A stretch of 64,000 nucleotides of DNA from Candidatus Binatia bacterium (lineage in GTDB: Bacteria > Desulfobacterota > Binatia > UBA12015), in contig JAQWRY010000062.1 in NCBI GenBank assembly GCA_029243485.1, positions 1-64,000 of the forward strand, given 5' to 3'. Below are positions 15,233-47,608 of the stretch, one piece after another. Each line of letters begins with the position of its first letter. The stretch's first letter is position 1. The position numbers were made by a program, and so were the translations under genes. The notes below the pieces were generated by a model. The model was given only the letters and a program-made list of their open reading frames with translations, searched no databases and was not told the DNA's origin.

Positions 15233-16102
15233 CTACTGAATCCTCTTCAGCTTGGGCTTGGCGTCGGAGCGGGCTCCGCGCGAGCGACGCTCCGGTCGCG
15301 GGATCTCTGCTTGGAGCTCGGCGTTGCGGCGCTTGTTCCAAATCTCCACGTCGTGGAAGTCGGCCATCGTGTCACCACGAAGTCCGAGACGAAGGGTCTC
15401 GAGTGCGATGACCTCGTTCGACGCGATGTTCCCGAGGTTCACCTCAGACCCGAGCTTCTGAACCATGTAGACCTGCTGGGTCTTCTGCGGCGACTCGAAG
15501 ATGAGATCGGCCGGGTCGACCTTGGCGACGATCTCGTCGATCAGTCCGGCCCGAGCTTCACCGGAGCCGAAGTACAGCCCCACAGTACCGCTCTCGCGCG
15601 CCTCACAGATGACCTTCCAGGCGCCGGCGTCCTGGTCGGACTGGATGAGCTCGACCCAACGGAACGGCGGGATGACCTTGTCCGAGTCCTTACTACCGAC
15701 CTCGGAGAGCACCGTGAATTCCTTGGTGAGCTCACGGATGTAACGCGCCTTCTCCTTCATCGACATGTCGATGACACCGTTCGAGATCTCGACGTGCGTG
15801 ACGCCGACCTCTCGCGCCATGTCACGGAACTCATCGAAGCGCTTCTGCAGAATCGCGACCTCGACCAACGTTCCGCCGAAGCAGACCGGGATGCCGGCTT
15901 CGCGGTACACCTTGATCTTCTCGATGACGTTCTGCGTGACGTAGCCAGTGCCCCAGCCGAGCTTCACGATATCGATGTAGTCCGAACACGTATCGAGCAT
16001 GTCCTCGACCTGACGAATGCCCATCCCCTTGTCCATGACATGGGTGACACCCACATCTCGGGGCTTGGCGCTTCGGGTCGGCAGGGAGAAGAAATCGAGC
16101 AT
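15233..16102 (-). CDS. Phosphosulfolactate synthase (ComA / XcbB1-like)
   Basis: A protein of 289 residues. The TIM-barrel pattern of ComA is clear: VTHVMDKGMGIRQVEDML, DYIDIVKLGWGT, IPVCFGGTLVEVA, VTHVEISNGVIDMS, FTVLSEVGSKD, and a late strand LIFESPQKTQQVYMV. The family adds sulfite to phosphoenolpyruvate to make (R)-phosphosulfolactate, the first step of coenzyme M synthesis in many methanogens and of bacterial CoM synthesis in Xanthobacter. The C-terminus has a Lys/Arg tail not needed for the fold. A good GGAG lies 7 bases before ATG 16102. It is the last gene of an operon with a lyase of the aspartase/fumarase superfamily and an ATP-grasp ligase. Confidence 0.88.
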   Translation of the reverse strand: MLDFFSLPTRSAKPRDVGVTHVMDKGMGIRQVEDMLDTCSDYIDIVKLGWGTGYVTQNVIEKIKVYREAGIPVCFGGTLVEVAILQKRFDEFRDMAREVGVTHVEISNGVIDMSMKEKARYIRELTKEFTVLSEVGSKDSDKVIPPFRWVELIQSDQDAGAWKVICEARESGTVGLYFGSGEARAGLIDEIVAKVDPADLIFESPQKTQQVYMVQKLGSEVNLGNIASNEVIALETLRLGLRGDTMADFHDVEIWNKRRNAELQAEIPRPERRSRGARSDAKPKLKRIQ

Positions 16103-16143
16103 CGTATGTCTCCAGTCTCGGTTGGGGTCTTCGGGGAAGTTGC

Positions 16144-17670
16144 TCAGGCCGAAGCCGCTCGCTCACGTGCGAGTTCAAGCAACGCCTCCTCTTTTGTTCG
16201 TAGTCGATCGGCGGTCTGCTGACGCCAGGCTGCGTGTTCCCCCAGTGCGGCCCGGCACTCTTTGATCATGGCGGCGACCGGCTCTGCGGCCGCCCCCCCT
16301 ACACCCCTTCTCGTATCCACTACTTCGGCTGGATCCCGCAGCGACTGGAGCGCCGCCTCATCGATCCCCAGAGAACGGCCCAGCACCTGCTGTGCCGCGT
16401 CGTCGAGCCGTGCCAGGGTGACACTGTCTGCCTTCGGGTCGGCTTCGATCTCGAGCCGGACCGCCAGAGCGACCAGACGATGCGATTGACGGTAGGAGAG
16501 CCCTTCGGCCTGCATGACGAGTTCGGCCAGGTCCATCGACGTGGTGAAGCCTTTTCCTGCGCGCTGCCGCATCAGGTCCGTGTCGAACGTGAGTCCGGCT
16601 AGAACCCCGGCCATGAGCCTCGTCGTGCGAATGCCGTCGTCCAGCGCGCGCGGCACCTCACCCAGGGCAAATATTCGATTGTCCATCTGAGCCGAGGGGG
16701 TCTTACCCACCGCAGCCATGGAGACGAGACGGCCCATCACGCTCCCCGTGATGCCACGAACGAAGGCCAGAGAGTAAGGGTTTTTCTTTTGCGGCATGAT
16801 CATGCTGATCCGCGTGTGTCGGTCGGCGAGCTCCACCAAGCCGAACTCCTGCGTGTTCCAGATCTGCAGATCCTCGGCGAGTCGGTCCAGATGGAGCAGA
16901 TGCGTCAGCACCTGGGTCAAGACTTCAATCGGTTGATCGACCTGCCACATCGCATCCCGGGTGTTCTCAATGGCGCCGTCGAAGGCGAGTAGCTCGGCAA
17001 GGCGCGATCGCGCGAGTGGGAGGCGCGAGCCATTGATGTTGCCGATTCCACCGGGGCACTGATTGTTGCGCGCAAAGACTTCGCGCAGACGGTCTAGATC
17101 GCGAAGAAGCGGGAACGTGAATGACAGCAAGTAGTGCCCGAGGCTCGTCGGTGTCGCAGGCTGCAAGTACGTGTAGTCCGGCATCACCGTCGTCGGATGC
17201 GCTTCCGCTTGTGCGATCAGGGCTTCGGCCGCCGCAATCGTCTCGGCCGCCAACTCGAGCAGCCGGTCTCGAACCGCGATCCGGTAAGCGATGGTCGCCG
17301 GTTCCCGACGGGGCCTCCCGGCGCCCATCCAACCCGCAACAGCTTCGTCGCGCGCCTTCACCCACGCCTCGCGATTGGAGTAGACGTCTTCGATCGTCGG
17401 ATCGAGCGGGAAGTCTTCGAGCGGCACGTCGTGCAAGTCGAGGAGGTGCGCCAGCAACGCGCGGCCCGGCTCGTCCGGAACGACGCCGACCTCCATCAAC
17501 ATCAGAATATGCGCGAAATCGGAGAGGCTCAGCCCGCGATAGAGAATGGGTGCATCCGCGATCTCACGGGCAAACGATGCCTCGACGAGTTCGCGCGCGG
17601 GCCCTTCCTTCAGTCGAGCGCCCTCCCCCTGCCCTTTGGAGGGAGGACCGCTGTCCTTCGTTGCGCTCAA
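16144..17670 (-). CDS. Argininosuccinate-lyase-like enzyme of the aspartase/fumarase superfamily
   Basis: A protein of 508 residues. The superfamily signature is ISMIMPQKKNPYSLAFVRG, with the catalytic-loop serine at about residue 289; the second Ser of the usual GSS is Met. Earlier come TYLQPATPTSLGHYLLSF (substrate loop) and CPGGIGNINGSRLPLAR. It is probably not a true argininosuccinate lyase, because it sits with phosphosulfolactate synthase and no arginine gene. In bacterial coenzyme M synthesis a relative (XcbC1) removes phosphate from phosphosulfolactate to give sulfoacrylate, and I infer a similar elimination here. The start is TTG 17670 behind GAGG that overlaps the upstream stop; longer in-frame starts would run into the ATP-grasp gene. 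Confidence 0.85.
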   Translation of the reverse strand: MSATKDSGPPSKGQGEGARLKEGPARELVEASFAREIADAPILYRGLSLSDFAHILMLMEVGVVPDEPGRALLAHLLDLHDVPLEDFPLDPTIEDVYSNREAWVKARDEAVAGWMGAGRPRREPATIAYRIAVRDRLLELAAETIAAAEALIAQAEAHPTTVMPDYTYLQPATPTSLGHYLLSFTFPLLRDLDRLREVFARNNQCPGGIGNINGSRLPLARSRLAELLAFDGAIENTRDAMWQVDQPIEVLTQVLTHLLHLDRLAEDLQIWNTQEFGLVELADRHTRISMIMPQKKNPYSLAFVRGITGSVMGRLVSMAAVGKTPSAQMDNRIFALGEVPRALDDGIRTTRLMAGVLAGLTFDTDLMRQRAGKGFTTSMDLAELVMQAEGLSYRQSHRLVALAVRLEIEADPKADSVTLARLDDAAQQVLGRSLGIDEAALQSLRDPAEVVDTRRGVGGAAAEPVAAMIKECRAALGEHAAWRQQTADRLRTKEEALLELARERAASA

Positions 17671-17677
17671 ACCGTCC

Positions 17678-18997
17678 TCAATCGACCGTGACCCGACGGA
17701 GGCCCTGCCCGACCGTCGGATCAGCCGCCAGCAGTAACTCTTCGAGGTGCTTCGGACGGCTCTGGCGGGTGCGCTCGGCCTCCGGCTCCTTGTGTTTCGC
17801 GCGGCGACGGATCCGGCCCATGCCGGCATCCACGATGCGTGACAACGAATTCAGAAGCGGGCCCGGATCGTCCCACGCGGCGTACGCATAGGTGCGTTTG
17901 CCGCTGTACGACTTGAGCCAGGACCAGGGCGTCAGGCGTTTCTCGGGCAGGAAGTAGAGCGAAACCGTCTTCAGGTCGCGCTCCTCGTGGATCCACTTGA
18001 CCCCCTCTTCGAAGCTCGTTTGCCGAGCGACCGGCAGGCCGAGCACCTCGCGGTACCAGATATTCGGGAGGTTGATTCCCGACCGGGTCACGAGGCCATG
18101 CGGGAACCACGTACGTCCCCCGGTCGCCTCGGTCATCTTGTAGCTGCCATCGCGGCGATCCTTCTTGAACTCGACCACGCCGTAGCCCACGTGCCCGACT
18201 CCCTGCAGGATGCGCACGGCTTCCTTCGCGACCCAAGGTTGGTTGAGACTCTCCGCGAGCGTCGCGGTTCCGAAGCCGCGAGGGTACATGCGCAGCTTTC
18301 GCCCGCTCCAGATCGCGAGGGGATTCTGATCCTTGTCGAGGTACGTGACGCCCCACACTACCTGACTGTCGTCACCGGGCATGTACTCCTGAATGATCAG
18401 ATCCTGGTGAACGGGGTAGATCAGGTCATAGAGCGACTTCAGCATGTCGGCCGAGTCGGCCAGGAACAGCCGCGTGTCGAACGTGTCGCGCCAGTTTGCG
18501 GTCGGCTGGAACGGCTTGATCAGACACGGGTACGAGATGTCGCGCACGATCTCGTCAATGTCGTGCGCCTCGTCGGTGAACCAAGTGCGCGGCAGCGGGT
18601 AGTCGCGCTCCATCGCGATTTTGTAGAACGACTTCTTGTCCATGAAGAGTTCGAGCACTTCTTTGGACGGCAGCCGGTAGTGGAACCACTCGTCCAGTTC
18701 GTCGCGGTGCTGCGAGATCATCTGGACGTTCAAGTCGCCGCTCGGGATCAGGACGGCCTTCTCATCCAGGGAACGCCCGATCTCCTGGAGGGTATCGATC
18801 AGGCCCGGCCCGCCCTTCACGAAGTCATCGCATTGGACCTTCGTGGCGTAACGGGTCTGGGCACCGGGCTGTGTGAGATCCGTGTCGATGCCGATCACGG
18901 GGACGCCGACCCGGCCGAGGGCACGACAGGTGGCGAGGCCGTTTTGGCCGAGCCCCAGGACGATCGCCGGGGGCCGGTCGAATTTGGGCAGATTCAT
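17678..18997 (-). CDS. ATP-grasp ligase
   Basis: A protein of 439 residues. The N-terminal Rossmann-like domain starts IVLGLGQNGLATCRALGRVGVPVIGID, as in D-aspartate-ligase and carbamoyl-phosphate-synthase-like ATP-grasp enzymes. The ATP-grasp body follows: MDKKSFYKIAMERDYPLPRTW, YPCLIKPFQP, LIIQEYMPGDDSQ and GYGVVEFKKDRRDGSYKMTEATGGRTW, which holds the magnesium-binding Glu region. Such enzymes join a carboxylate to an amine or thiol through an acyl phosphate. It is first in the operon, 7 bp before the lyase gene, so I infer that it ligates the sulfonated product or a precursor to an amino acid or amine. Confidence 0.85.
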   Translation of the reverse strand: MNLPKFDRPPAIVLGLGQNGLATCRALGRVGVPVIGIDTDLTQPGAQTRYATKVQCDDFVKGGPGLIDTLQEIGRSLDEKAVLIPSGDLNVQMISQHRDELDEWFHYRLPSKEVLELFMDKKSFYKIAMERDYPLPRTWFTDEAHDIDEIVRDISYPCLIKPFQPTANWRDTFDTRLFLADSADMLKSLYDLIYPVHQDLIIQEYMPGDDSQVVWGVTYLDKDQNPLAIWSGRKLRMYPRGFGTATLAESLNQPWVAKEAVRILQGVGHVGYGVVEFKKDRRDGSYKMTEATGGRTWFPHGLVTRSGINLPNIWYREVLGLPVARQTSFEEGVKWIHEERDLKTVSLYFLPEKRLTPWSWLKSYSGKRTYAYAAWDDPGPLLNSLSRIVDAGMGRIRRRAKHKEPEAERTRQSRPKHLEELLLAADPTVGQGLRRVTVD

Positions 18998-37633: not shown

Positions 37634-39118
37634 TCAGCCGACGAACAGTCGGGCCGACCGGTCAGCGAAATCGAAGAGCGGTCCCCAGAAGAGCCCGAGC
37701 ACGATCGTCCCGATCGTCAACAGTCCGAGCAGAAGCCCGTTGTGCATGTCGACCTCGACGACGCCCTCGCCCCCTTCGGGCTGGTCGAGGAACATCGTCC
37801 GCACGATCTTCGCGTAGTAAAAGAGCGAGACCACACTATTCGCAACGCCAATGAGCGCCAGGATGTAGAACTCCTCCTTCACGACGGCCGCGAAGAGATG
37901 GAATTTGCCGATGAAGCCGGCGAGCGGCGGAAGCCCCGTCAGCGAGAACATGAAGACCGCCATCGCGATGGCCGGCAAGGCACCGCCCCGCCACGCGAGG
38001 CCCCGGAAGCTCGCGAGATCTTCGCGGCCCGTCGAGTTCGCCACCATCATCACCACGAGGAAGGCCCCGATGTTCATGAGGTAGTAGACGGTCAGATAGA
38101 AGATCATTGCCCGCAGGCCATCGTCCGTCAGAACGACGAGGCCCATGAGCGCATAGCCCGCGTGAGCAATGCCCGAGTACGCGAGGAGTCGCTTCACGTT
38201 CGCCTGCTGATTCAGCGCGGCGAGGTTTCCGTATGTCATCGTGAGCGCCGAGAGCACCAGAAGAAGGTGATCCCACCTGACTCCGCCGACGATCTCATAC
38301 GTGCCGCCGCCACCGGGCTGCGCGAGCGCGGTCAGGAAGAAGCGAATCATCAACGCGAAGGCCGCCGTCTTGGAGCCAACGGCAAGGAACGCGGCGACGG
38401 GAACCGGAGCGCCCTGATAGACGTCGGGTGCCCACATGTGGAACGGGAAAGCGGAGATCTTGAAGCCCAGGCCCGCCACCGTGAGGATCAGCGCGACGTA
38501 CAGAGCAAGCTGCCCGGAAGCGTCGAGTCCTGCGAGCGCCTGCTGGATCGCGTGGAACTCGAGGCTACCCGCGAGCCCATAGATCCAGCTCATGCCGTAG
38601 ATCATCGCGCCCGAAGCCACACCACCGTAGATGAGGTACTTGAGCGACGCCTCGCCCGAACGCCGGCTGTGCAGCGAGTACCCCGCGAGCACGTAGGACG
38701 TGAGACTCACGAACTCGAGCGAGAGGTACGCCATCAGCAGGTTGTTGGCGGACGCCATGTACGCCATGCCCAGCGTCGCCGCCAGCAGGATCGCCCAGTA
38801 CTCCCCCTGGTTCAGGCGTCGTACTTCACGCGAACCGAGCGACATCCAGATCGTCGCGAACGAAGACAGTAGAACGAGGAGCTGGAAGTAGAGTCCGAAC
38901 TCGTCGAGAACGATGGACTTGTGGAAGAGCGTCCCCGTCTCCGAGGACAGCTGCATGACGACGAGAAAGATCGCCGCCGCCACAACCAACAAAGCGATGT
39001 CGCCGAGCCACTCCTTCTTCTCGATCACCAGGTCGAGAAGGAACACAGCCACCACCGAAAACGCCAAGAGCAGCGCCGGCAAGCTGTGGGAGAGGCTCGC
39101 GAAATTTGCGAGGTCCAA
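37634..39118 (-). CDS. nuoN: NADH-quinone oxidoreductase subunit N
   Basis: A protein of 494 residues with about 14 membrane helices. It is one of the three antiporter-like proton-pumping subunits of complex I. The conserved lysine and glutamate regions are visible (LSLEFVSLTSYVLAGY; HMWAPDVYQGAPVPVAAFLAVGSKTAA). It is 15 bp after nuoM and is the last nuo gene of the operon. Confidence 0.95.
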   Translation of the reverse strand: MDLANFASLSHSLPALLLAFSVVAVFLLDLVIEKKEWLGDIALLVVAAAIFLVVMQLSSETGTLFHKSIVLDEFGLYFQLLVLLSSFATIWMSLGSREVRRLNQGEYWAILLAATLGMAYMASANNLLMAYLSLEFVSLTSYVLAGYSLHSRRSGEASLKYLIYGGVASGAMIYGMSWIYGLAGSLEFHAIQQALAGLDASGQLALYVALILTVAGLGFKISAFPFHMWAPDVYQGAPVPVAAFLAVGSKTAAFALMIRFFLTALAQPGGGGTYEIVGGVRWDHLLLVLSALTMTYGNLAALNQQANVKRLLAYSGIAHAGYALMGLVVLTDDGLRAMIFYLTVYYLMNIGAFLVVMMVANSTGREDLASFRGLAWRGGALPAIAMAVFMFSLTGLPPLAGFIGKFHLFAAVVKEEFYILALIGVANSVVSLFYYAKIVRTMFLDQPEGGEGVVEVDMHNGLLLGLLTIGTIVLGLFWGPLFDFADRSARLFVG

Positions 39119-39133
39119 GCGCCCGCCCCTTCC

Positions 39134-40642
39134 CTACCGCGCGCTCAGGATACCGGTCGCGGATGCGACCGGCCCTTGGCCGGCGGAGAGCACGGTCTCA
39201 TTGAGGTGCGTGAGCGAAACATCGATCAGACTGAGAACCGGCTTCGGGTAGACGCCCAGGATGATCACGATGATCGCGAGCGGCACCAGCATGCCGACTT
39301 CGCGCATGTTGATGTCGGGCAGGTCCAGGTACTTCTCGTTCGCCGGACCGAGGTAGATGCGCTGCATGGTCCAGAGCATGTAGCCCGCGGTCAGAACGAC
39401 CGCAGCGGCCGAGATCACCGTGAGCACCGGGTAGTAGCGCCAGCCGCCGAGGAGAACCAGAACCTCGGAAATGAACGCCGAGAGCCCTGGCAGGCCCATG
39501 GCGGCGAAGAACGCGAAGGCCGTCCAGCCGGTGTAGAACGGCATGATGCTGGCGAGCCCGCCGAAGCCGTTGATCTCACGATGGTGCGCCCGGTCGTAGA
39601 TGACACCGACCAGAAGGAACAACATCGCGGTGACCGTTCCGTGGTTGAACATCTGAAGGACGGCGCCGTCGATGCCCTGCTGCGTGAACGTCGCCATTCC
39701 GAACATGACGTAGCCCATGTGGCTGATCGACGAGTACGCGATCAGCTTCTTGTAGTCGGTCTGCGCCATCGCGCAGAGGGCGCCATAGATGATGTTGACG
39801 ACCCCCAACACCACGAGGAAGTAGTACGCGAACTCCAACGTGCCGACCGGCAGAATCGCGTAGTTGATCCGCAGGATTCCGTAAGCCCCCATCTTGAGCA
39901 GGACGCCGGCCAGGATGACCGAGATCGCGGTCGGCGCCTCGACGTGCGCGTCGGGCAACCAGGTATGGAACGGGAACGCCGGGATTTTGATCGCGAACCC
40001 GATGAACAACGCGATCCAAGCGAAGCGTTGGAAGTTGTCCGAGTACGTCGGTGCTCGGCGGGCGAGCTCGAGCATGTCGAACGTGTGCGGGTCGTTGTAG
40101 AAGTACAACGCCAGCATCGCGACCAGCATCAAGACACTGCCGACCATCGTATAGAGGAAGAACTTGATCGCGGCGTACTCGCGCCGCGGCCCGCCCCAAA
40201 TACCGATCAGGAAGTACATCGGCAGGAGCATCACTTCCCAGAAAACGAAGAACAGGAAGAAGTCGAGCGCACAGAAAACGCCCATCATCGCCGTGTCGAG
40301 GAGCAGGAAGAGCGGGAAGTAGGCCTTGACCGCCTTGTCGATGTTCCACGAAGCGACGATGCAGATCGTCGAGAGCAGCGCGGTCAACAGGATCATCGTG
40401 ATCGAGATCCCGTCGACACCGACGTAGTACTCGATGTTGAAGGCCGGAATCCACGCCACCCGCTGCACGAGCTGCATGTCGGGCGTCGTACGATCGAAGC
40501 TTCCAAAGAGCTGGAAGGCCATGATCAACGGCGGAACGGTCGCGCCGAGCGCAACCCACTTGATCGCCGCCTCCGCCTTCTTAGGCATCAGCAGGATCAA
40601 GGCCGCTCCGATCAGCGGCGTAAAGATCATCCAGGTCAGCAT
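39134..40642 (-). CDS. nuoM: NADH-quinone oxidoreductase subunit M
   Basis: A protein of 502 residues starting at ATG 40642 behind GAGGGGA. It has about 14 helices with the family motifs FFVFWEVMLLPMYFLIGIWG, the helix pair around IPAFPFHTWLPDAHVEAPTAISVILAGVLLKMGAYG, and YSSISHMGYVMFG. It is a proton-translocating antiporter-like subunit of the membrane arm, 35 bp after nuoL. An in-frame extension to 40783 lies inside nuoL and is not the start. Confidence 0.95.
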   Translation of the reverse strand: MLTWMIFTPLIGAALILLMPKKAEAAIKWVALGATVPPLIMAFQLFGSFDRTTPDMQLVQRVAWIPAFNIEYYVGVDGISITMILLTALLSTICIVASWNIDKAVKAYFPLFLLLDTAMMGVFCALDFFLFFVFWEVMLLPMYFLIGIWGGPRREYAAIKFFLYTMVGSVLMLVAMLALYFYNDPHTFDMLELARRAPTYSDNFQRFAWIALFIGFAIKIPAFPFHTWLPDAHVEAPTAISVILAGVLLKMGAYGILRINYAILPVGTLEFAYYFLVVLGVVNIIYGALCAMAQTDYKKLIAYSSISHMGYVMFGMATFTQQGIDGAVLQMFNHGTVTAMLFLLVGVIYDRAHHREINGFGGLASIMPFYTGWTAFAFFAAMGLPGLSAFISEVLVLLGGWRYYPVLTVISAAAVVLTAGYMLWTMQRIYLGPANEKYLDLPDINMREVGMLVPLAIIVIILGVYPKPVLSLIDVSLTHLNETVLSAGQGPVASATGILSAR

Positions 40643-40677
40643 GTTCCCCTCATTTGTTCTCGAACGCCCCTCGCCCT

Positions 40678-42843
40678 TCAGATCAGCTGAACGAAGAGCA
40701 CCACCGCCACGCCGATTACGATCACGTAGAGGTAGGAGTAGATGTGTCCCGTCTGGATCGTGCGGACACGGTTGCCCGCCCACGAGGTCACGCTGCCCAC
40801 CGCGTTCACCGCCCCGTCGACGACATACGTGTCGAAGGCAGCCTCCACCGTGGCGATGGTGCGTGTAACCGCAGCGACTCCGTTCACGAGCCCGTCGATG
40901 ATGATTCGGTCGAAGTTCGAGAGCAGGCCCGAAATGGCCAGCGTCCCGCGAATGACCGTCGCTTCGTAGAGTTCATCTACGTAATACTTGTTGTAGATCA
41001 GCTTGTACGGCACGCCCGCCAGGATGTCGCTGAAGCGCTCCGGCGCGATGGCCTTCTTGATGTAGATCAGCCAGGCGAGCAGGATCCCGCCCATCGCGAT
41101 CAGAACCGAGACACCCATCAGGATGTACTCGAACGGATCGTGCGCGACGCTGTGGGCCACGTGCTCGACGTCGGCCGCGACCTCGGCGACGATTCCCTGT
41201 GCGCCGTGTGCGGCCGCCGCGGCAGCGCCGTGGCCTCCCGCGGACATGACCGGCGCGAGCCAGTTGTCGAAGATGTGATGACCGCCGAGGGCCCCGGGGA
41301 CGTTCAGGAAACCGGTCAGAACCGCGCCCGCTCCGAGAACCATCAGTGGGATCGTCATGACGAGCGAAGACTCGTGCGGCTCGTGGTGCCCGTGGTCGCC
41401 ATGGCCGTCGTCGGCCGCGTGACCCTGGTCGTCTTCACCCGCATGCCCCGGGCCGCGGTACTCCCCGTGGAACGTCAGGAAGACCTGCCGGAACATGTAA
41501 AACGCAGTAAAGCCCGCCGCGATGCTGCCGAAGAGCCAGATCAAGCCGGACCCGTGCGGGCTCGACCAGGCCTTCCAGAGAATTTCATCCTTAGAGAAGA
41601 AGCCGGCGAACGGCGGAATGCCGGAAATGGCCAAGGTCGAGACCAGGAACGTCCAGTACGTGATCGGCATGTACTTCTTCAGGCCACCCATGTTCCGCAT
41701 GTCCTGCTCGTGATGCAGGGCGTGGATGATGCTGCCCGAGCCGAGGAACAAACAGGCCTTGAAGAACGCGTGCGTGAAGAGGTGGAAGATGCCGGCCGAA
41801 TACGACCCCACACCCATCGCGATGAACATGAATCCCAGCTGCGAGACCGTCGAGTAAGCGAGAACCTTCTTGATGTCCCACTGCGCGACACCGATCGTCG
41901 CCGCGACGAACGCGGTCGCCGTACCGATGAAAGCGATCACGCCGAGCGTCGCTGGCGCCATGTCGAACAAGAAGTTGAGTCGGGCGATCAGGTAGACGCC
42001 CGCTGTGACCATCGTTGCGGCGTGGATCAGAGCCGACACCGGCGTGGGGCCGGCCATCGCGTCGGGCAGCCAGACGTACAGCGGAATCTGCGCCGACTTG
42101 CCGGCGGCGCCCACAAAGAGCGCCAACGTGATGAAGGTGGCCGCGCCGAGCCCGAAGATCATCTGGCCATCGAGCAGGTGCACGCGCTCGGCGATCTCCC
42201 GCACGACGAGCGTGCCCTGCCCCGTCTGGTCCAGACACCAGTAGAGCGCGAACATCCCCAGCACGAAGCCGAAGTCGCCGATGCGGTTTACAATGAACGC
42301 CTTCGAACCCGCCGTCGCGTTCGCGTTGACCTTGTAATAGAAGCCGATCAGCGCGTAGGAGCAGAGCCCGACGCCTTCCCAGCCGACGAACAGCGTGAGC
42401 AGGCTGTCACCGAGAACGAGCGTGAGCATCGCCGCGGTGAAGAGGTTCAAGTAGGCGAAGTAGCGCCAGATGCTCGGCTCGTCGTCCATGTAGCCGGCCG
42501 AGTACATGTGGATCAGCCCGCCGATCCCGGTGACCACCAGCAGCAACGTGCTCGAGAGCGGATCCGCCCACCACGCCAAGTTCACCTTCAGGTGCCCGAC
42601 GTGGATCCACTCGGACATGTCGTCCAAGAGGAAGCGTTGGTCCGGCTCCATCCCGACGAGTTGCAGGAACGCGGTCACCGCGAGGATGAAGGCGAGCGCA
42701 ACCGGCGCGCAGGCTATCCCGATGACCGCTCCGCGGCCCAGGCGCTTTTGAATGTGAAAGCCGAACAGCCCGTTGATCGTCGCTCCGATGAGCGGCAACA
42801 GGATGATCCAGCGCAGGTAATCTACTTCAGTAGGATGAGACAC
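40678..42843 (-). CDS. nuoL: NADH-quinone oxidoreductase subunit L, with His-rich insertion
   Basis: A protein of 721 residues, longer than the usual 610-650. The antiporter core is normal: FVGWEGVGLCSYALIGFYY, SAQIPLYVWLPDAMAGPTPVSALIHAATMVTAGVYLI, AYSTVSQLGFMFIAMG. The C-terminal long helix that runs along the membrane arm is present. Between about residues 460 and 500 is a soluble insertion with many His, Asp and Gly residues (GHAADDGHGDHGHHEPHE). The proton path is not interrupted by it. It may bind metal or be a disordered loop. Confidence 0.93.
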   Translation of the reverse strand: MSHPTEVDYLRWIILLPLIGATINGLFGFHIQKRLGRGAVIGIACAPVALAFILAVTAFLQLVGMEPDQRFLLDDMSEWIHVGHLKVNLAWWADPLSSTLLLVVTGIGGLIHMYSAGYMDDEPSIWRYFAYLNLFTAAMLTLVLGDSLLTLFVGWEGVGLCSYALIGFYYKVNANATAGSKAFIVNRIGDFGFVLGMFALYWCLDQTGQGTLVVREIAERVHLLDGQMIFGLGAATFITLALFVGAAGKSAQIPLYVWLPDAMAGPTPVSALIHAATMVTAGVYLIARLNFLFDMAPATLGVIAFIGTATAFVAATIGVAQWDIKKVLAYSTVSQLGFMFIAMGVGSYSAGIFHLFTHAFFKACLFLGSGSIIHALHHEQDMRNMGGLKKYMPITYWTFLVSTLAISGIPPFAGFFSKDEILWKAWSSPHGSGLIWLFGSIAAGFTAFYMFRQVFLTFHGEYRGPGHAGEDDQGHAADDGHGDHGHHEPHESSLVMTIPLMVLGAGAVLTGFLNVPGALGGHHIFDNWLAPVMSAGGHGAAAAAAHGAQGIVAEVAADVEHVAHSVAHDPFEYILMGVSVLIAMGGILLAWLIYIKKAIAPERFSDILAGVPYKLIYNKYYVDELYEATVIRGTLAISGLLSNFDRIIIDGLVNGVAAVTRTIATVEAAFDTYVVDGAVNAVGSVTSWAGNRVRTIQTGHIYSYLYVIVIGVAVVLFVQLI

Positions 42844-42855
42844 TGGCAGCTTCCC

Positions 42856-43167
42856 TCAGCCCCTGAGCGTGTCGGTCGCTTCGACGTCGATCGTCTCGAA
42901 CTTCCGATAGATACCGAGAACGATCGCAAGCCCGATCGCAGCCTCTGCGGCCGCGAGCATGATCGCGAAGATGGTGAAAATCTGTCCGTCGTACCCGCTC
43001 CCGCCGAAGCGCGAGAACGCGATGTAGTTGATGTTGGCGGAATTCAGGATCAGCTCGACGCCCATGAGGACGCCGATCGCGTTGCGCCGCGTGAGAACCG
43101 TGAAGAGCCCCGCGATGAAGACCAGAATGCTGACCGTCAGGAAATGATGCAGGCCGATGTCGAGCAT
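42856..43167 (-). CDS. nuoK: NADH-quinone oxidoreductase subunit K
   Basis: A protein of 103 residues with three membrane helices. The two conserved buried glutamates are in LMGVELILNSANINYIAFSRF and MLAAAEAAIGLAIVLGIYRK. The ATG overlaps the nuoJ stop by one base (TGATG), so translation is coupled. It is part of the proton channel region of complex I. Confidence 0.96.
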   Translation of the reverse strand: MLDIGLHHFLTVSILVFIAGLFTVLTRRNAIGVLMGVELILNSANINYIAFSRFGGSGYDGQIFTIFAIMLAAAEAAIGLAIVLGIYRKFETIDVEATDTLRG

Positions 43168-43664
43168 CAGTCGCGAATTTCCTTCCGGGAGAGAACGATC
43201 GCCCCGACGAGTGCGGTCAACAGCACGACCGACGCCAGTTCGAACGGCAGGAGATAGGGGCCGAGGAAGAGCTCCCCGATCGCGTATGTACTCGGCGTGG
43301 GGTCACCGGGATCGACCAACTTCCAGGGCGCCCGGAAAGCCGCCGTGAACATCCCGAAAGCGACGATGCCGACGACCAGAGCGGCGGGGATCCTCCCGAC
43401 GGAGCGGTTCGACACTTCCACCTCCGCGATCTGATGCGTGAGCATGATCGCAAAGAGCGTCAGGACCAGGATCCCGCCGACGTAGACAAGGATCTGAACG
43501 ACGGCGAGGAAGTCGGCAGAGAGAAATGCGTACATCCCCGCGGTCCCCAGGAGAGCGCCCATCAATGCGAACGCCGAGTACACGACGTTGCGCGACAGCG
43601 CGACACCGAGGGCACAGCCCACGGTCAGCCCGGCAATCAAATAGAATAGTGCGGCGTAGACCAC
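43167..43664 (-). CDS. nuoJ: NADH-quinone oxidoreductase subunit J
   Basis: A protein of 165 residues with five membrane helices. The family motif ALMGALLGTAGMYAFLSADFLAVVQILVYVGGILVLTLFAIML contains the helix 3 pi-bulge region that couples quinone reduction to pumping. It follows nuoI after 54 bp and overlaps nuoK by one base. Confidence 0.95.
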   Translation of the reverse strand: MVYAALFYLIAGLTVGCALGVALSRNVVYSAFALMGALLGTAGMYAFLSADFLAVVQILVYVGGILVLTLFAIMLTHQIAEVEVSNRSVGRIPAALVVGIVAFGMFTAAFRAPWKLVDPGDPTPSTYAIGELFLGPYLLPFELASVVLLTALVGAIVLSRKEIRD

Positions 43665-43718
43665 TTCAGAGCACCACCACGGCGGCCCCGAGCAACGAAC
43701 GGCGAGCGATGAGGCCCG

Positions 43719-44252
43719 TCATTTCGAGCTGCCGGGGGTTGCAAACTCTTCCAGATACTTGAGCCCACGCGTAAGAATCGGTGCGACCTCGGGATCCGTC
43801 TCGGGTCCCTTGACCGGCTTGTACGCGGGGATCGGCGCTTTGACGTATCGGCGAATCAGACTCTCGAGAGAGTAGTCCGCCCCTTCGAACTCCGTCGTGT
43901 GATGAATCGAGCCCGTCGGGCACGGCTCCGAACACAGTCCGCAGTACATGCACTTCGCCAGATCGATGTCGAAGCGCTTGAGCGTCATTTCCTTCGTCTG
44001 CTTGTTCTTGTCGGCATCGATGACGATGCAGTCGATCGGACAGGCGCGTTCGCAAGCGAGACAACCGGTGCAGATCTCCAGGTCGACGTCGAGCAGCCCG
44101 CGGTAGCGGAACGGCAAGGCGTCCTGGAGCCGAATGTCGAGCCGGTCCGGGTACTGAATGGTGAACGGCTTGCGCACGAAGTGCGACGCCGTAATCGCCA
44201 TCCCCTCGAAGATGGTGGTGATCGTGTCTTTGATGTTTCCGAAGTAGCCCAT
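43719..44252 (-). CDS. nuoI: NADH-quinone oxidoreductase subunit I (two 4Fe-4S clusters)
   Basis: A protein of 177 residues. The two ferredoxin motifs are CTGCLACERACP and CMYCGLCSEPCP, ligating clusters N6a and N6b that pass electrons to NuoB. An N-terminal amphipathic helix with a typical HFVRKPFTIQYPD segment anchors it. It follows nuoH after 12 bp. In this 11-subunit complex NuoI is the most likely entry point for electrons from an external donor. Confidence 0.96.
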   Translation of the reverse strand: MGYFGNIKDTITTIFEGMAITASHFVRKPFTIQYPDRLDIRLQDALPFRYRGLLDVDLEICTGCLACERACPIDCIVIDADKNKQTKEMTLKRFDIDLAKCMYCGLCSEPCPTGSIHHTTEFEGADYSLESLIRRYVKAPIPAYKPVKGPETDPEVAPILTRGLKYLEEFATPGSSK

Positions 44253-44264
44253 TTTCCTACTGCC

Positions 44265-45449
44265 TCACGCGAGCGGACTCAGGTGCATCTCAGGCTTGGC
44301 CCGACGCAGGTGGAACATGACCCGAGAGAGGAAATACAGCATTACGCCGACCCCCAAAGCGAACATCAGGATCCGCACGGGAAGGAAGCCGTGGGGGAAA
44401 ATCACGAACCAGATCATTGCGCCGAGCAGATTCACGAACCCGATCGGCGTAAGGTACTTCCAGCAGAGCGTCATGAGCTGATCGACGCGGACGCGCGGCA
44501 GCGTGCCCCGGACCCACATCGCGACGAATACGATGAAGTACGACTTGAGGAAGAACGTCGCGAACTGCAGGAGCCCGACCAGAACCGGATTGTCCGTGAC
44601 CGGCGGGATCTGCCAGCCACCGAGGAACATCGTCGCGCACAGCGCCCCGATGACGTAGAGGTTGCCCCACTCCACCAGGAAGAAGAGGAGATTGCGCAGT
44701 CCGCTGTACTCGGTGAACGCGCCGGCGACGAGCTCCGACTCGGCCTCGGGAAGATCGAACGGCGTCCGGTTCCCTTCGGCGAGTGCCGACACGAAGAAGA
44801 GGAAGAACCCGATGAACAGGAATGGGTTGTCGAACAAGAACCAATTCCACGGCTCCCAGCCCTGCGCCCGGATGATCGACTGCATGCTGAGCGACCCGGT
44901 GAAGAGCACCACCGTAATCACGGCGAGCCCCGCGGGAATCTCGTAGCTGATGATCTGCGCCGCGGAGCGGATCCCGCCGAGCAGCGCCCACTTGTTGTTC
45001 GATGCCCAGCCGGCCATCAACACGCCGACGACGACCAGTGCGGTCACCGCGGTGATGTAGAGGAGTCCGACGTCGAGATCGGCGGCCACGAGGCCGTCCC
45101 CGAAGGGGATGACGGCGAAGGTCGCGAAGAAGCCCATCATCGCGAGGTACGGCGCCGCCTTGAACAACGGCGCGTCCGCTTCCTCCGGAATGATGTCTTC
45201 CTTCATGATGTTCTTGAGGCCATCGGCGAGCCACTGAATGCTGCCCTGCGGGCCCACGCGGTTCGGTCCGATGCGGGACTGGATTCGTCCCCACACGCGA
45301 CGCTCGAGCCAACTCGTGACTCCGGCGACCAGCATGATGAAGTTCAGCAAAACGAAGGCGAAGAACGCGACGATCAGCACGTAGCCGAGCTCGGTCGGCA
45401 TCCCGGTGAAGATGCCGCCGTCGAGCATGCTGTCGGCGAGCTTTTGCAT
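44265..45449 (-). CDS. nuoH: NADH-quinone oxidoreductase subunit H
   Basis: A protein of 394 residues with eight or nine membrane helices. It forms the quinone chamber with NuoB and NuoD. Conserved segments are WLERRVWGRIQSRIGPNRVGPQG, the Glu-rich loop AEGNRTPFDLPEAESELVAGAFTEYSG and WVRGTLPRVRVDQLM. Its ATG overlaps the nuoD stop by one base (TAATG). NuoG, which normally lies between D and H, is absent. Confidence 0.96.
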   Translation of the reverse strand: MQKLADSMLDGGIFTGMPTELGYVLIVAFFAFVLLNFIMLVAGVTSWLERRVWGRIQSRIGPNRVGPQGSIQWLADGLKNIMKEDIIPEEADAPLFKAAPYLAMMGFFATFAVIPFGDGLVAADLDVGLLYITAVTALVVVGVLMAGWASNNKWALLGGIRSAAQIISYEIPAGLAVITVVLFTGSLSMQSIIRAQGWEPWNWFLFDNPFLFIGFFLFFVSALAEGNRTPFDLPEAESELVAGAFTEYSGLRNLLFFLVEWGNLYVIGALCATMFLGGWQIPPVTDNPVLVGLLQFATFFLKSYFIVFVAMWVRGTLPRVRVDQLMTLCWKYLTPIGFVNLLGAMIWFVIFPHGFLPVRILMFALGVGVMLYFLSRVMFHLRRAKPEMHLSPLA

Positions 45450-46609
45450 TACCGGTCCACCTCCGGAGCCACGATGTCGAGGCTCGCGATGACCGCGATG
45501 AGATCCGCGATCATGAGGCCCTTGCTGAGTTCTTCAACGATGGCCATCGCAGCGTACGAACCAGTTCGGATGTGGGTCCGTGCCGGGAACGCGGTGCCGT
45601 CGCTGACGACGAACCACCCCATGTCACCGCGCGAACCTTCGACGCGAACGTACGTCTCGCCGGCAGGCGGCTTGAACGTGCGTGCGACCTTCGCAACGAC
45701 GGGACCTTCGGGAATGCCGCCGAGCGCCTGACGAAGGATCTTGCAGCTCTCCTTCATCTCGTCCATGCGCACCATGTAGCGATCCCAGCAGTCGCCGACG
45801 ATGCCCATCTTGCCCTGACCGACCGGCACGTCGAAGTCGAACTCCGGATAGCAGGAGTACGGCTCATCCTTGCGGACGTCGTACTTCACGCCCGAACCGC
45901 GCAGGTTCGGGCCGACGAGGTTGTAGGCGATCGCCATCTCGCGCGAGACCGGAGCGACGCGGCCCATCCGCTCGGTGTAGATCTTGTTGAACGAGATCAG
46001 CTCGTTGTATTCGTCGATGAGCGGCTCGAACGCATCGAGGAAGGCGGTGGCGCGCTTGATGAAGCCGGGCGGGAGGTCCCACGCACATCCGCCGATGCGC
46101 ATGTAGTTGAACGTGAGACGGGCACCACACAACTCTTCGAGAATGTCGTTGATCTTCTCGCGTTCGCGAAGCGCGTGGGTGAACGGCGTCATCGCCCCGA
46201 TGTCCATGGCGGTCGCGCCGACCGAGATCAGGTGGCTCGCGATACGGCCGAACTCGCACGCGATCACGCGGCAGTACTCACCGCGTCGCGGCACTTCGAT
46301 CCCAGCCAGAGTCTCACAGGCGATCGCCCAGCCCTGGTTGCACTGCATCGCCGAGACGTAATCGACGCGATCGGTGTACGGCATGAAGCCGTGGTAGCCG
46401 ACCTTTTCTGAGATCTTCTCGATCGAGCGGTGCAGGTAACCGATGTCGGGAATGGCGCGGCGCATGATCTCGCCGTCCGCCTTCACGACGAAACGCAGCA
46501 CGCCGTGGGTGGAGGGATGCTGCGGACCCATGTTGAGGGTCATCTCCTCCGTTTCGAGACCGGCGGCCGTCTCGCGCTCGAGACCAATTTCGATTGAGGT
46601 CGTGCTCAT
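45449..46609 (-). CDS. nuoD: NADH-quinone oxidoreductase subunit D
   Basis: A protein of 386 residues of the 49-kDa, NiFe-hydrogenase-large-subunit-like family. It has [23 protein letters not shown] with the quinone-binding His, then [19 protein letters not shown] and [12 protein letters not shown]. The metal-ligating cysteines of hydrogenases are absent, as in all complex I members, so it is not an energy-converting hydrogenase. Its ATG overlaps the nuoC TGA (ATGA). Confidence 0.96.
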
Positions 46610-47103
46610 AGCTTCAGCAAGCTCTCTCGGCGCGTCGAGATGCCGTGGTATTCCTCTGGCTCGACGAAGTCCTTGCGAAGGGGATGGCCGACCCAGTCCT
46701 CGGGCATGAGAAGGCGGCGCAGATCGCCGTGACCGATGAAGTTCACACCCATCAGATCGAAGGCTTCACGCTCGAGCCAATCGCCGATGGGCCACACCGT
46801 AGAGACGGTCGGCAGAACGGGATCGAGCCGCGGGCAGGACGCCTTGAGCGTCAGCTTGTGGCGGTGCTCGTAGCTGTACAAGTGGTAGTAGACGTCGATC
46901 AGGTCGTCGGCCTTGCGGTCGACGGCCGTCAGATTCGACAGGCAGTCGAAGGCAATCTCGGGATCTTCCTTGAGATGCCGGCAGGCCTCGGCGACCGCGG
47001 CGGGAAGCACCTCGACGATCGCCCACTCGGCCTCGGCCACTTCCGGGAGGACCGAGTTGCCGTGTCTTTCCCGGAGACGGCGGTGGATCTCTGTTGCGTC
47101 CAT
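46606..47103 (-). CDS. nuoC: NADH-quinone oxidoreductase subunit C
   Basis: A protein of 165 residues starting at ATG 47103. It has [73 protein letters not shown] and GHPLRKDF, the 30-kDa subunit signature. It is separate from nuoD rather than fused as in E. coli. It is 7 bp after nuoB. Confidence 0.96.
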
Positions 47104-47110
47104 TACCGCT

Positions 47111-47608
47111 TCAGACCGCCGCGCTCTCGGGCGCACGGACGAGCCAGCGCTCTTGCTGGATCTTGTCCTGGAGCTTCAGGAGGCCCTCGGTCAGCGCCTC
47201 GGGGCGAGGCGGGCAACCAGGGACGTACACGTCGACCGGAATGACTTTGTCGACGCCGTCGCACACGGAGTAGGCGAGCTGGAAGAGCCCCCCGCAGTTC
47301 GCACAGCTGCCCATGGAGATCGCGTACTTCGGATCGGGCATCTGCTCGTAAAGCAGCTTGGTGCGCAAAGCCATCTTCAGCGTGAGCGTGCCCGACACGA
47401 TAATGAGGTCGGAGACGCGCGGCGTTGCCCGGGGGACGGCACCAAACCGGTCCAGGTCGGAACGCGGCCCGCCGGCCTGCATCATCTCGATGGCGCAGCA
47501 CGCGAGTCCGAACAGCATGTACCAAACCGAAGATTTTCGGGTCCAGTTGAGGACGTCGTCGATTTTGCTCGTGACGACGGTCTCCGGAATCGTGTTGATC
47601 AAAGACAT
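47111..47608 (-). CDS. nuoB: NADH-quinone oxidoreductase subunit B (cluster N2)
   Basis: A protein of 165 residues. The cysteines of the N2 cluster are visible in [17 protein letters not shown] and [12 protein letters not shown]2 is the final cluster that reduces quinone at the interface with NuoD. It is 31 bp after nuoA and 7 bp before nuoC. Confidence 0.97.

Follow-up and report, generated by a model that had tools for sequence, protein, structure and literature searches.

A minus-strand operon of Candidatus Binatia encoding ComA, an XcbC-clade lyase and an ATP-grasp ligase as a candidate short sulfonate pathway

The stretch of DNA analysed here (the window) comprises bases 1-64,000 of contig C62 from a Candidatus Binatia bacterium (assembly of 6.5 Mb in 88 contigs), and it carries three minus-strand open reading frames (ORFs) that encode, in transcription order, an ATP-grasp ligase, a lyase of the XcbC clade, and the phosphosulfolactate synthase ComA. 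The reading that we favor, with a probability of roughly 0.42, is that this operon specifies a short sulfonate pathway in which ComA and the lyase produce sulfoacrylate, which is then ligated to an amine, perhaps an amino sugar belonging to a surface glycan. ComA would combine phosphoenolpyruvate (PEP) and sulfite into phosphosulfolactate, the lyase would eliminate phosphate to leave 3-sulfoacrylate, and the ATP-grasp enzyme would convert the carboxylate of sulfoacrylate (or of its reduced form) to an acyl phosphate and then to an amide with the acceptor amine. Judged by the characterised homologues, the first half of the pathway up to sulfoacrylate is very likely; that the ATP-grasp enzyme ligates a C3 sulfonate to an amine is probable, and the final role of the product is one that we infer. 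No publication describing this set of ComA, lyase, and ATP-grasp genes was found in literature searches, some of which drew on partial listings. The features of the operon, in window coordinates, are:

17678..18997, minus strand: first gene, ATP-grasp ligase (439 amino acids, ATG start), the proposed C3-sulfonate:amine ligase.
17671..17677, minus strand: 7 bp gap between the ATP-grasp stop and the TTG start of the lyase; in the sequence, GAGGA overlaps the stop and lies just upstream of the start.
16144..17670, minus strand: second gene, XcbC-clade lyase (508 amino acids, TTG start), the proposed phosphosulfolactate phosphate-lyase forming sulfoacrylate.
16103..16143, minus strand: 41 bp gap between the lyase and ComA genes.
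15233..16102, minus strand: third gene, ComA, phosphosulfolactate synthase (289 amino acids, ATG start).

A preliminary description of this DNA had claimed three co-transcribed genes separated by 7 and 41 bp, and both the ORFs and the gaps are present as described, with the qualification that the TTG start of the lyase is a chosen one (the mechanical ORF extends upstream to 17829). Its assignments of the products, namely a ComA-like synthase, a lyase with a catalytic-loop serine, and an ATP-grasp ligase, are likewise borne out by the profile scores, loop residues, and predicted fold given below. Comparison of the window with two congeners yields ratios of nonsynonymous to synonymous substitution rates (dN/dS) of ~0.04 to 0.15 in each of the three genes, and these low values indicate that the three-gene set is more than chance.

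The third gene product, ComA, scores 293.5 bits on PF02679 (cut-off 25.2), covers positions 2-243 of the 243 in the profile, and belongs to the same family as the archaeal/Bacillus enzymes, aligning along its length with the solved phosphosulfolactate synthases 1u83 and 1qwg. It differs from these enzymes in its operon setting and in falling below the cut-off of the archaeal equivalog in NCBIfam (TIGR03849; 264 bits versus 280). Both ComA and the lyase have counterparts in the xcb cluster of Xanthobacter autotrophicus Py2 (L025), where the ComA homologue is 37% identical to the window protein and XcbC is 43% identical to the window lyase. The two systems have their first two steps in common, whereas the window operon carries an ATP-grasp ligase in place of XcbA, XcbD, and XcbE. 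In bacterial coenzyme M synthesis, XcbB1 followed by XcbC1 is reported to yield phosphosulfolactate and then sulfoacrylate (PMC8727900).

The lyase scores 113.6 bits on PF00206, 533.9 bits on the NCBIfam XcbC model NF052535 (curated cut-off 575), and 272.5 bits on the argininosuccinate lyase (ArgH) model TIGR00838 (cut-off 279.5); because its XcbC score is below the cut-off, it is labelled XcbC-clade instead of XcbC. For comparison, the XcbC model gives 742 bits for the Xanthobacter protein, 628 bits for one lyase from a coenzyme M cluster of family f5, and 465-466 bits for the lyases of family f110. In both of two maximum-likelihood trees, the lyase and XcbC are joined at a support of 100/100, apart from ArgH (XcbC rows were taken from plasmids of Xanthobacter, Methylocystis, Nocardioides, and Mycolicibacterium; six wrong-frame ArgH picks were dropped from the alignment, ArgHfam_L176 from the first tree, and XcbD, PurB, and L208 from the second). 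The window lyase contains the loop R-I-S-M-I-M-P-Q-K-K-N-P, with S289 as the loop serine, and thus has the SxxMPQKKNP loop as well as the aspartase/fumarase superfamily in common with ArgH; however, ArgH has TH and RSRND where the window lyase has TY and RPRRE, and the latter sits in a separate clade. Across the alignment, TY (not TH), RxRRE, RDxMW, and xDN occur in 25/25 rows of the XcbC clade, while TH occurs in 11/11 ArgH and ArgH-like rows and RSRND in the five ArgH rows. We take these positions to line the active site, as in argininosuccinate lyase.

The product of the first gene matches no Pfam family at E 0.001, and its matches to PRK12767-like or carbamoyl-phosphate-synthase-like ATP-grasp models are below cut-off (best 46.9 bits versus 218); a weak KtrA match was all that its profile recovered from solved sequences. 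Its structure is nonetheless that of an ATP-grasp fold as predicted (mean predicted local distance difference test score 72.5, with residues 239-244, 339-388, 401-415, and 427-439 below 50), since the 50 structural entries shown all have ATP-grasp enzymes in their titles (Z 18.9-23.4, with 278-345 residues aligned). The best of these is the CarB-like 2pn1 (Z 23.4, 3.8 Å over 293 residues) and PylC lies at Z 20.3-20.9, although with such a spread among the 50 entries the nearest enzyme after 2pn1 is not settled. Residues K161, E204, E276, and E290, presumably the lysine and acidic positions of the ATP site, are retained, and T292 occupies the usual N of E-x-N. The protein thus has the fold, the ATP-site lysine, and the acidic residues in common with ATP-grasp carboxylate-amine ligases (2pn1, PylC), but is only 14-17% identical to them, has T for the N of E-x-N, and bears an extra C-terminal tail that is conserved in nine aligned family sequences. 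The tail of the family ATP-grasps ends DPTVGQGLRRVTVD (window 17681-17800); the full ATP-grasp ORFs at L087, L095, and L096 stop before it, and the tail at L084 has diverged.

The trio is conserved in the family and also turns up in two other families of its class, which leaves the preliminary description uncontradicted on this point. All 14 family genomes contain the ATP-grasp gene (69-95% identity to the window copy) and 13 contain the lyase; in the remaining genome, the ATP-grasp gene ends near the contig end. The order ATP-grasp, lyase, ComA is kept wherever contigs permit. A scan of 148 genomes of the class, with up to 10 candidates scored per genome so that counts are lower bounds, found a lyase match at E 1e-75 in at least 25 genomes and at least 22 XcbC-clade lyases (13 in this family, 2 in f109, 1 in f4, 4 in f110, and 2 in f5; 19 assigned by tree and 3, in G002, G003, and G007, by score). 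In 20 of these 22, the XcbC-clade lyase has an ATP-grasp gene close by, adjacent in 16 and one to two genes off in the 4 of f110; the other 2 (f5) lie in coenzyme M clusters. ComA is on the lyase contig in 20 of the 22, and the contigs of G002 and G007 end inside the lyase. At the level of the phylum, a scan with the lyase profile (up to three candidates scored per genome) found at least 2 of 395 genomes at E 1e-75, the window genome and G211.

Four weak lyase matches (265-297 bits) were found in G211, G508, and G514, with no ComA in the stretches around them; the lyases of G508 and G514 (265-284 bits) were left out of the tree, and that of G211, which was included, has TR at the TH position and falls outside the XcbC clade. 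G211 (L157, L158, L159; same class) also holds six ComA-family matches, some of them in tandem, and no XcbC-clade lyase was found there.

A parallel arrangement occurs in family f110, where all four genomes with a lyase group together a lyase (41% identical to that of the window), a different ATP-grasp (~30%), a flavoprotein, and ComA (48-51%). In sulfoacrylate a sulfonate takes the place of one of the two carboxylates of fumarate, and as a fumarate analogue it would lead one to expect a fumarate-reductase-like flavoprotein if it were an intermediate. The f110 flavoprotein, encoded at 7685-8881 in L235, is of the fumarate-reductase/NadB type: L-aspartate oxidase is its best model and fumarate reductase models come next, none of them reaching its cut-off (3 scanned). 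In E. coli FrdA numbering, all four retain E246, H356, and R391, but H233 is replaced by Q and T245 by P; R288 corresponds to an alignment gap, for which a nearby R-D pair, judged by eye, may be equivalent. Assuming the roles that we ascribe to these FrdA residues, one half of the dicarboxylate site is lost and the other half kept, a pattern that might be that of a sulfoacrylate reductase. Both f110 genomes that were scanned for an electron transfer flavoprotein have such a gene upstream. Breakdown of 3-sulfopropionate via sulfoacrylate and sulfolactate is attributed to a thesis by PMC11489063.

A third arrangement was observed in two further genomes of the phylum (L095, L096), in which ComA, an ATP-grasp, and a ComB-like phosphatase lie close together (identified by PF04029 in L096 and by visual similarity in L095), accompanied by glycosyltransferase and exosortase genes in L095 and a B12 radical SAM gene in L096; these are possible gene sets for a sulfolactate-bearing polysaccharide. 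In the ATP-grasp tree, the trio, f110, and L095/L096 form three separate clades, each at 100/100, and the sister of the trio ATP-grasps is L084/L087 (96/98). The forks joining the three clades are not strongly supported, so that separate recruitment of ATP-grasps in the three groups is no more than likely. On a broader reading, held at less than even odds, ComA plus an XcbC-type lyase, in some cases accompanied by a fumarate-reductase-like flavoprotein, is a unit producing sulfoacrylate or 3-sulfopropanoate that has been joined more than once to different ATP-grasp lineages to make C3-sulfonate amides on amino sugars of surface glycans. Searches with the ATP-grasp returned 87 plasmid records by tblastn, all below 60% identity and 37 of them Priestia, and a profile scan of the whole collection, which relies on a pair of short peptide patterns and may overlook some relatives, found at least 14 loci, nearly all family members plus L084.

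The surroundings of the cassette in some relatives hint at the acceptor. At L229, the trio is surrounded by a flippase, a GT4 glycosyltransferase, an MBOAT protein, a PIG-L de-N-acetylase, and a second ATP-grasp, and at L230 a glycosyltransferase lies just upstream of the cassette. Among the f110 loci, L235 has a glycosyltransferase and a flippase and L236 a flippase. A sulfotransferase lies upstream in L031 and L034, and an O-acyltransferase downstream in L037. Since the cassette stands amid polysaccharide genes in some relatives, an amino sugar of a surface glycan is the most likely acceptor, a tentative assignment by analogy that we hold at somewhat less than even odds. Six words for sulfonates were searched for and are absent in a portion of a glycan nuclear magnetic resonance review.

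Several observations weigh against the proposed glycan-linked sulfonate pathway. No recognised polysaccharide gene is found among the window neighbors of the operon, so the glycan acceptor rests on the relatives. The XcbC score of the lyase and the T in E-x-N of the ATP-grasp both depart from the reference enzymes, and the trio lacks the flavoprotein seen in f110, so the ligated acid may be either sulfoacrylate or its reduced form. Beyond the family the trio is patchy, as at least 14 other f109 genomes are without the lyase. Among 275 plasmid lyase records, the best 6 belong to coenzyme M clusters, and their listed genes do not include this ATP-grasp. No ATP-grasp of this kind is present in any of 19 further ComA stretches (drawn from 13 of the 41 phylum genomes with ComA, some stretches being ended by contig ends), 4 of which contain a ComB-like match; the idea that the ATP-grasp is a general partner of ComA was rejected on this result. 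Finally, the nearest ATP-grasp relatives outside the trio (L084, L087; 46% identity) lie amid polysaccharide genes with no ComA or lyase within the 18-21 kb searched. The genome of L087 is without ComA, and in that of L084 two partial matches to ComA lie on contigs other than that of the ATP-grasp, indicating that this type of ATP-grasp does not need a sulfonate.

Among the alternatives, one retains the same route to sulfoacrylate and differs in the acceptor: the acid would be ligated to an amino acid, a polyamine, or a lipid amine, and the product would be a free small molecule or a lipid rather than a glycan. This is consistent with the resemblance of the ATP-grasp model to PylC, an amino-acid ligase, among other ATP-grasp ligases, with the flanks of the window operon, and with the DUF218, PP2C, and radical SAM flanks shared by several f1 relatives (these flanks were searched for). 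However, the polysaccharide genes on the flanks of the L229, L235, and L236 cassettes, the glycosyltransferase adjoining that of L230, and the polysaccharide setting of ATP-grasp relatives that lack ComA all argue for a glycan, and we consider a small-molecule or lipid product unlikely.

It is less likely again that the ATP-grasp acts on an unrelated acid and that the lyase and ComA have no more than the operon in common with it, supplying sulfoacrylate or sulfolactate for another use. The ComA-less state of the nearest ATP-grasp relatives and the 19 ComA stretches devoid of this ATP-grasp would fit such an arrangement. Against it stands the recurrence of an ATP-grasp beside or near an XcbC-clade lyase in 20 of 22 cases, drawn from two separate ATP-grasp clades, and the ATP-grasp of the third clade adjoins ComA and a ComB-like gene.

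The preliminary description had left a choice between a new sulfonate and a coenzyme-M-like cofactor. The sulfonate half of that choice is supported, and its proposal that an ATP-grasp replaces the later Xcb steps has been strengthened by the f110 variant, with its different ATP-grasp and fumarate-reductase-like flavoprotein; the cofactor half has been weakened. A pathway to coenzyme M or a similar cofactor with its later enzymes unlinked would make use of ComA and an XcbC-type lyase as its first two bacterial steps (PMC8727900), and such pathways do occur in the class: the f5 loci L231 and L232 hold homologues of XcbB, C, D, and E with ~47-61% identity to Xanthobacter, L232 having an XcbA homologue as well and the L231 contig ending at ComA. 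XcbD-like matches of 233-292 bits are present in 6 of the 14 family genomes, none of them in the genus of the window. However, the XcbD cut-off of 600 is reached in 0 of 14, and the best XcbD score is 83 bits in the genus and 67 bits, at the ArgH locus, in the window genome. Surroundings were inspected at L208, L209, and L211 (other genes at L210, L212, and L213 were left out); the higher XcbD-like matches at L209 and L211 adjoin ORFs that resemble purine genes by eye, and the best model for the L208 lyase is PurB (307 bits, below the PurB cut-off), so that a coenzyme M pathway with a distant XcbD was rejected. Epoxyalkane:CoM transferase gave a weak partial match of 26.5 bits in 1 of 14 family genomes. 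The operon itself contains none of XcbA, XcbD, and XcbE (no genome-wide search was made for XcbE and XcbA). With no XcbD above the cut-off and no convincing transferase, a coenzyme M destination is very unlikely. L208 (9081-11745), from a family member, also shows a PurB/XcbD-type lyase beside an ATP-grasp paralogue, a second lyase-ligase pair.

That the operon consists of ordinary arginine genes with a second argininosuccinate lyase is highly improbable: the superfamily is shared, the ArgH score falls just short of its cut-off, and some trio lyases exceed it (281-299 bits), but all 13 aligned trio rows bear the XcbC letters, and the phylogeny, the active-site letters, and a separate ArgH together exclude it. 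The window genome encodes that separate ArgH on C75 (609.4 bits), which with the XcbC grouping at 100/100 leaves the preliminary description uncontradicted here too; a separate ArgH of 580-609 bits is present in 11 of the 14 family genomes and none was found in the other 3, whose assemblies are 63-88% complete.

The neighbors of the operon in the window are an AMP nucleosidase, a PAS-LuxR regulator, a PP2C phosphatase, a DUF218 protein, and a PA0069-type radical SAM protein, together with a histidine kinase recognised by eye. Farther along the window, a run of minus-strand ORFs (37634-47608) resembles, also by eye, a nuo (NADH dehydrogenase) operon.

Of the 22 class genomes found to carry an XcbC-clade lyase, 20 combine the first half of the coenzyme M route with another ending. 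If the proposed sulfonate pathway is correct, sulfoacrylate would have a second biosynthetic role, PEP and sulfite would be linked to a new sulfonated product, and a type of ATP-grasp that is also present in polysaccharide clusters would gain a testable function. The f110 variant adds an independent prediction, that of a flavoprotein reducing sulfoacrylate. If the acceptor is a surface glycan, the product itself would be a new negatively charged decoration of glycans, giving the coenzyme M route a destination outside cofactor synthesis.

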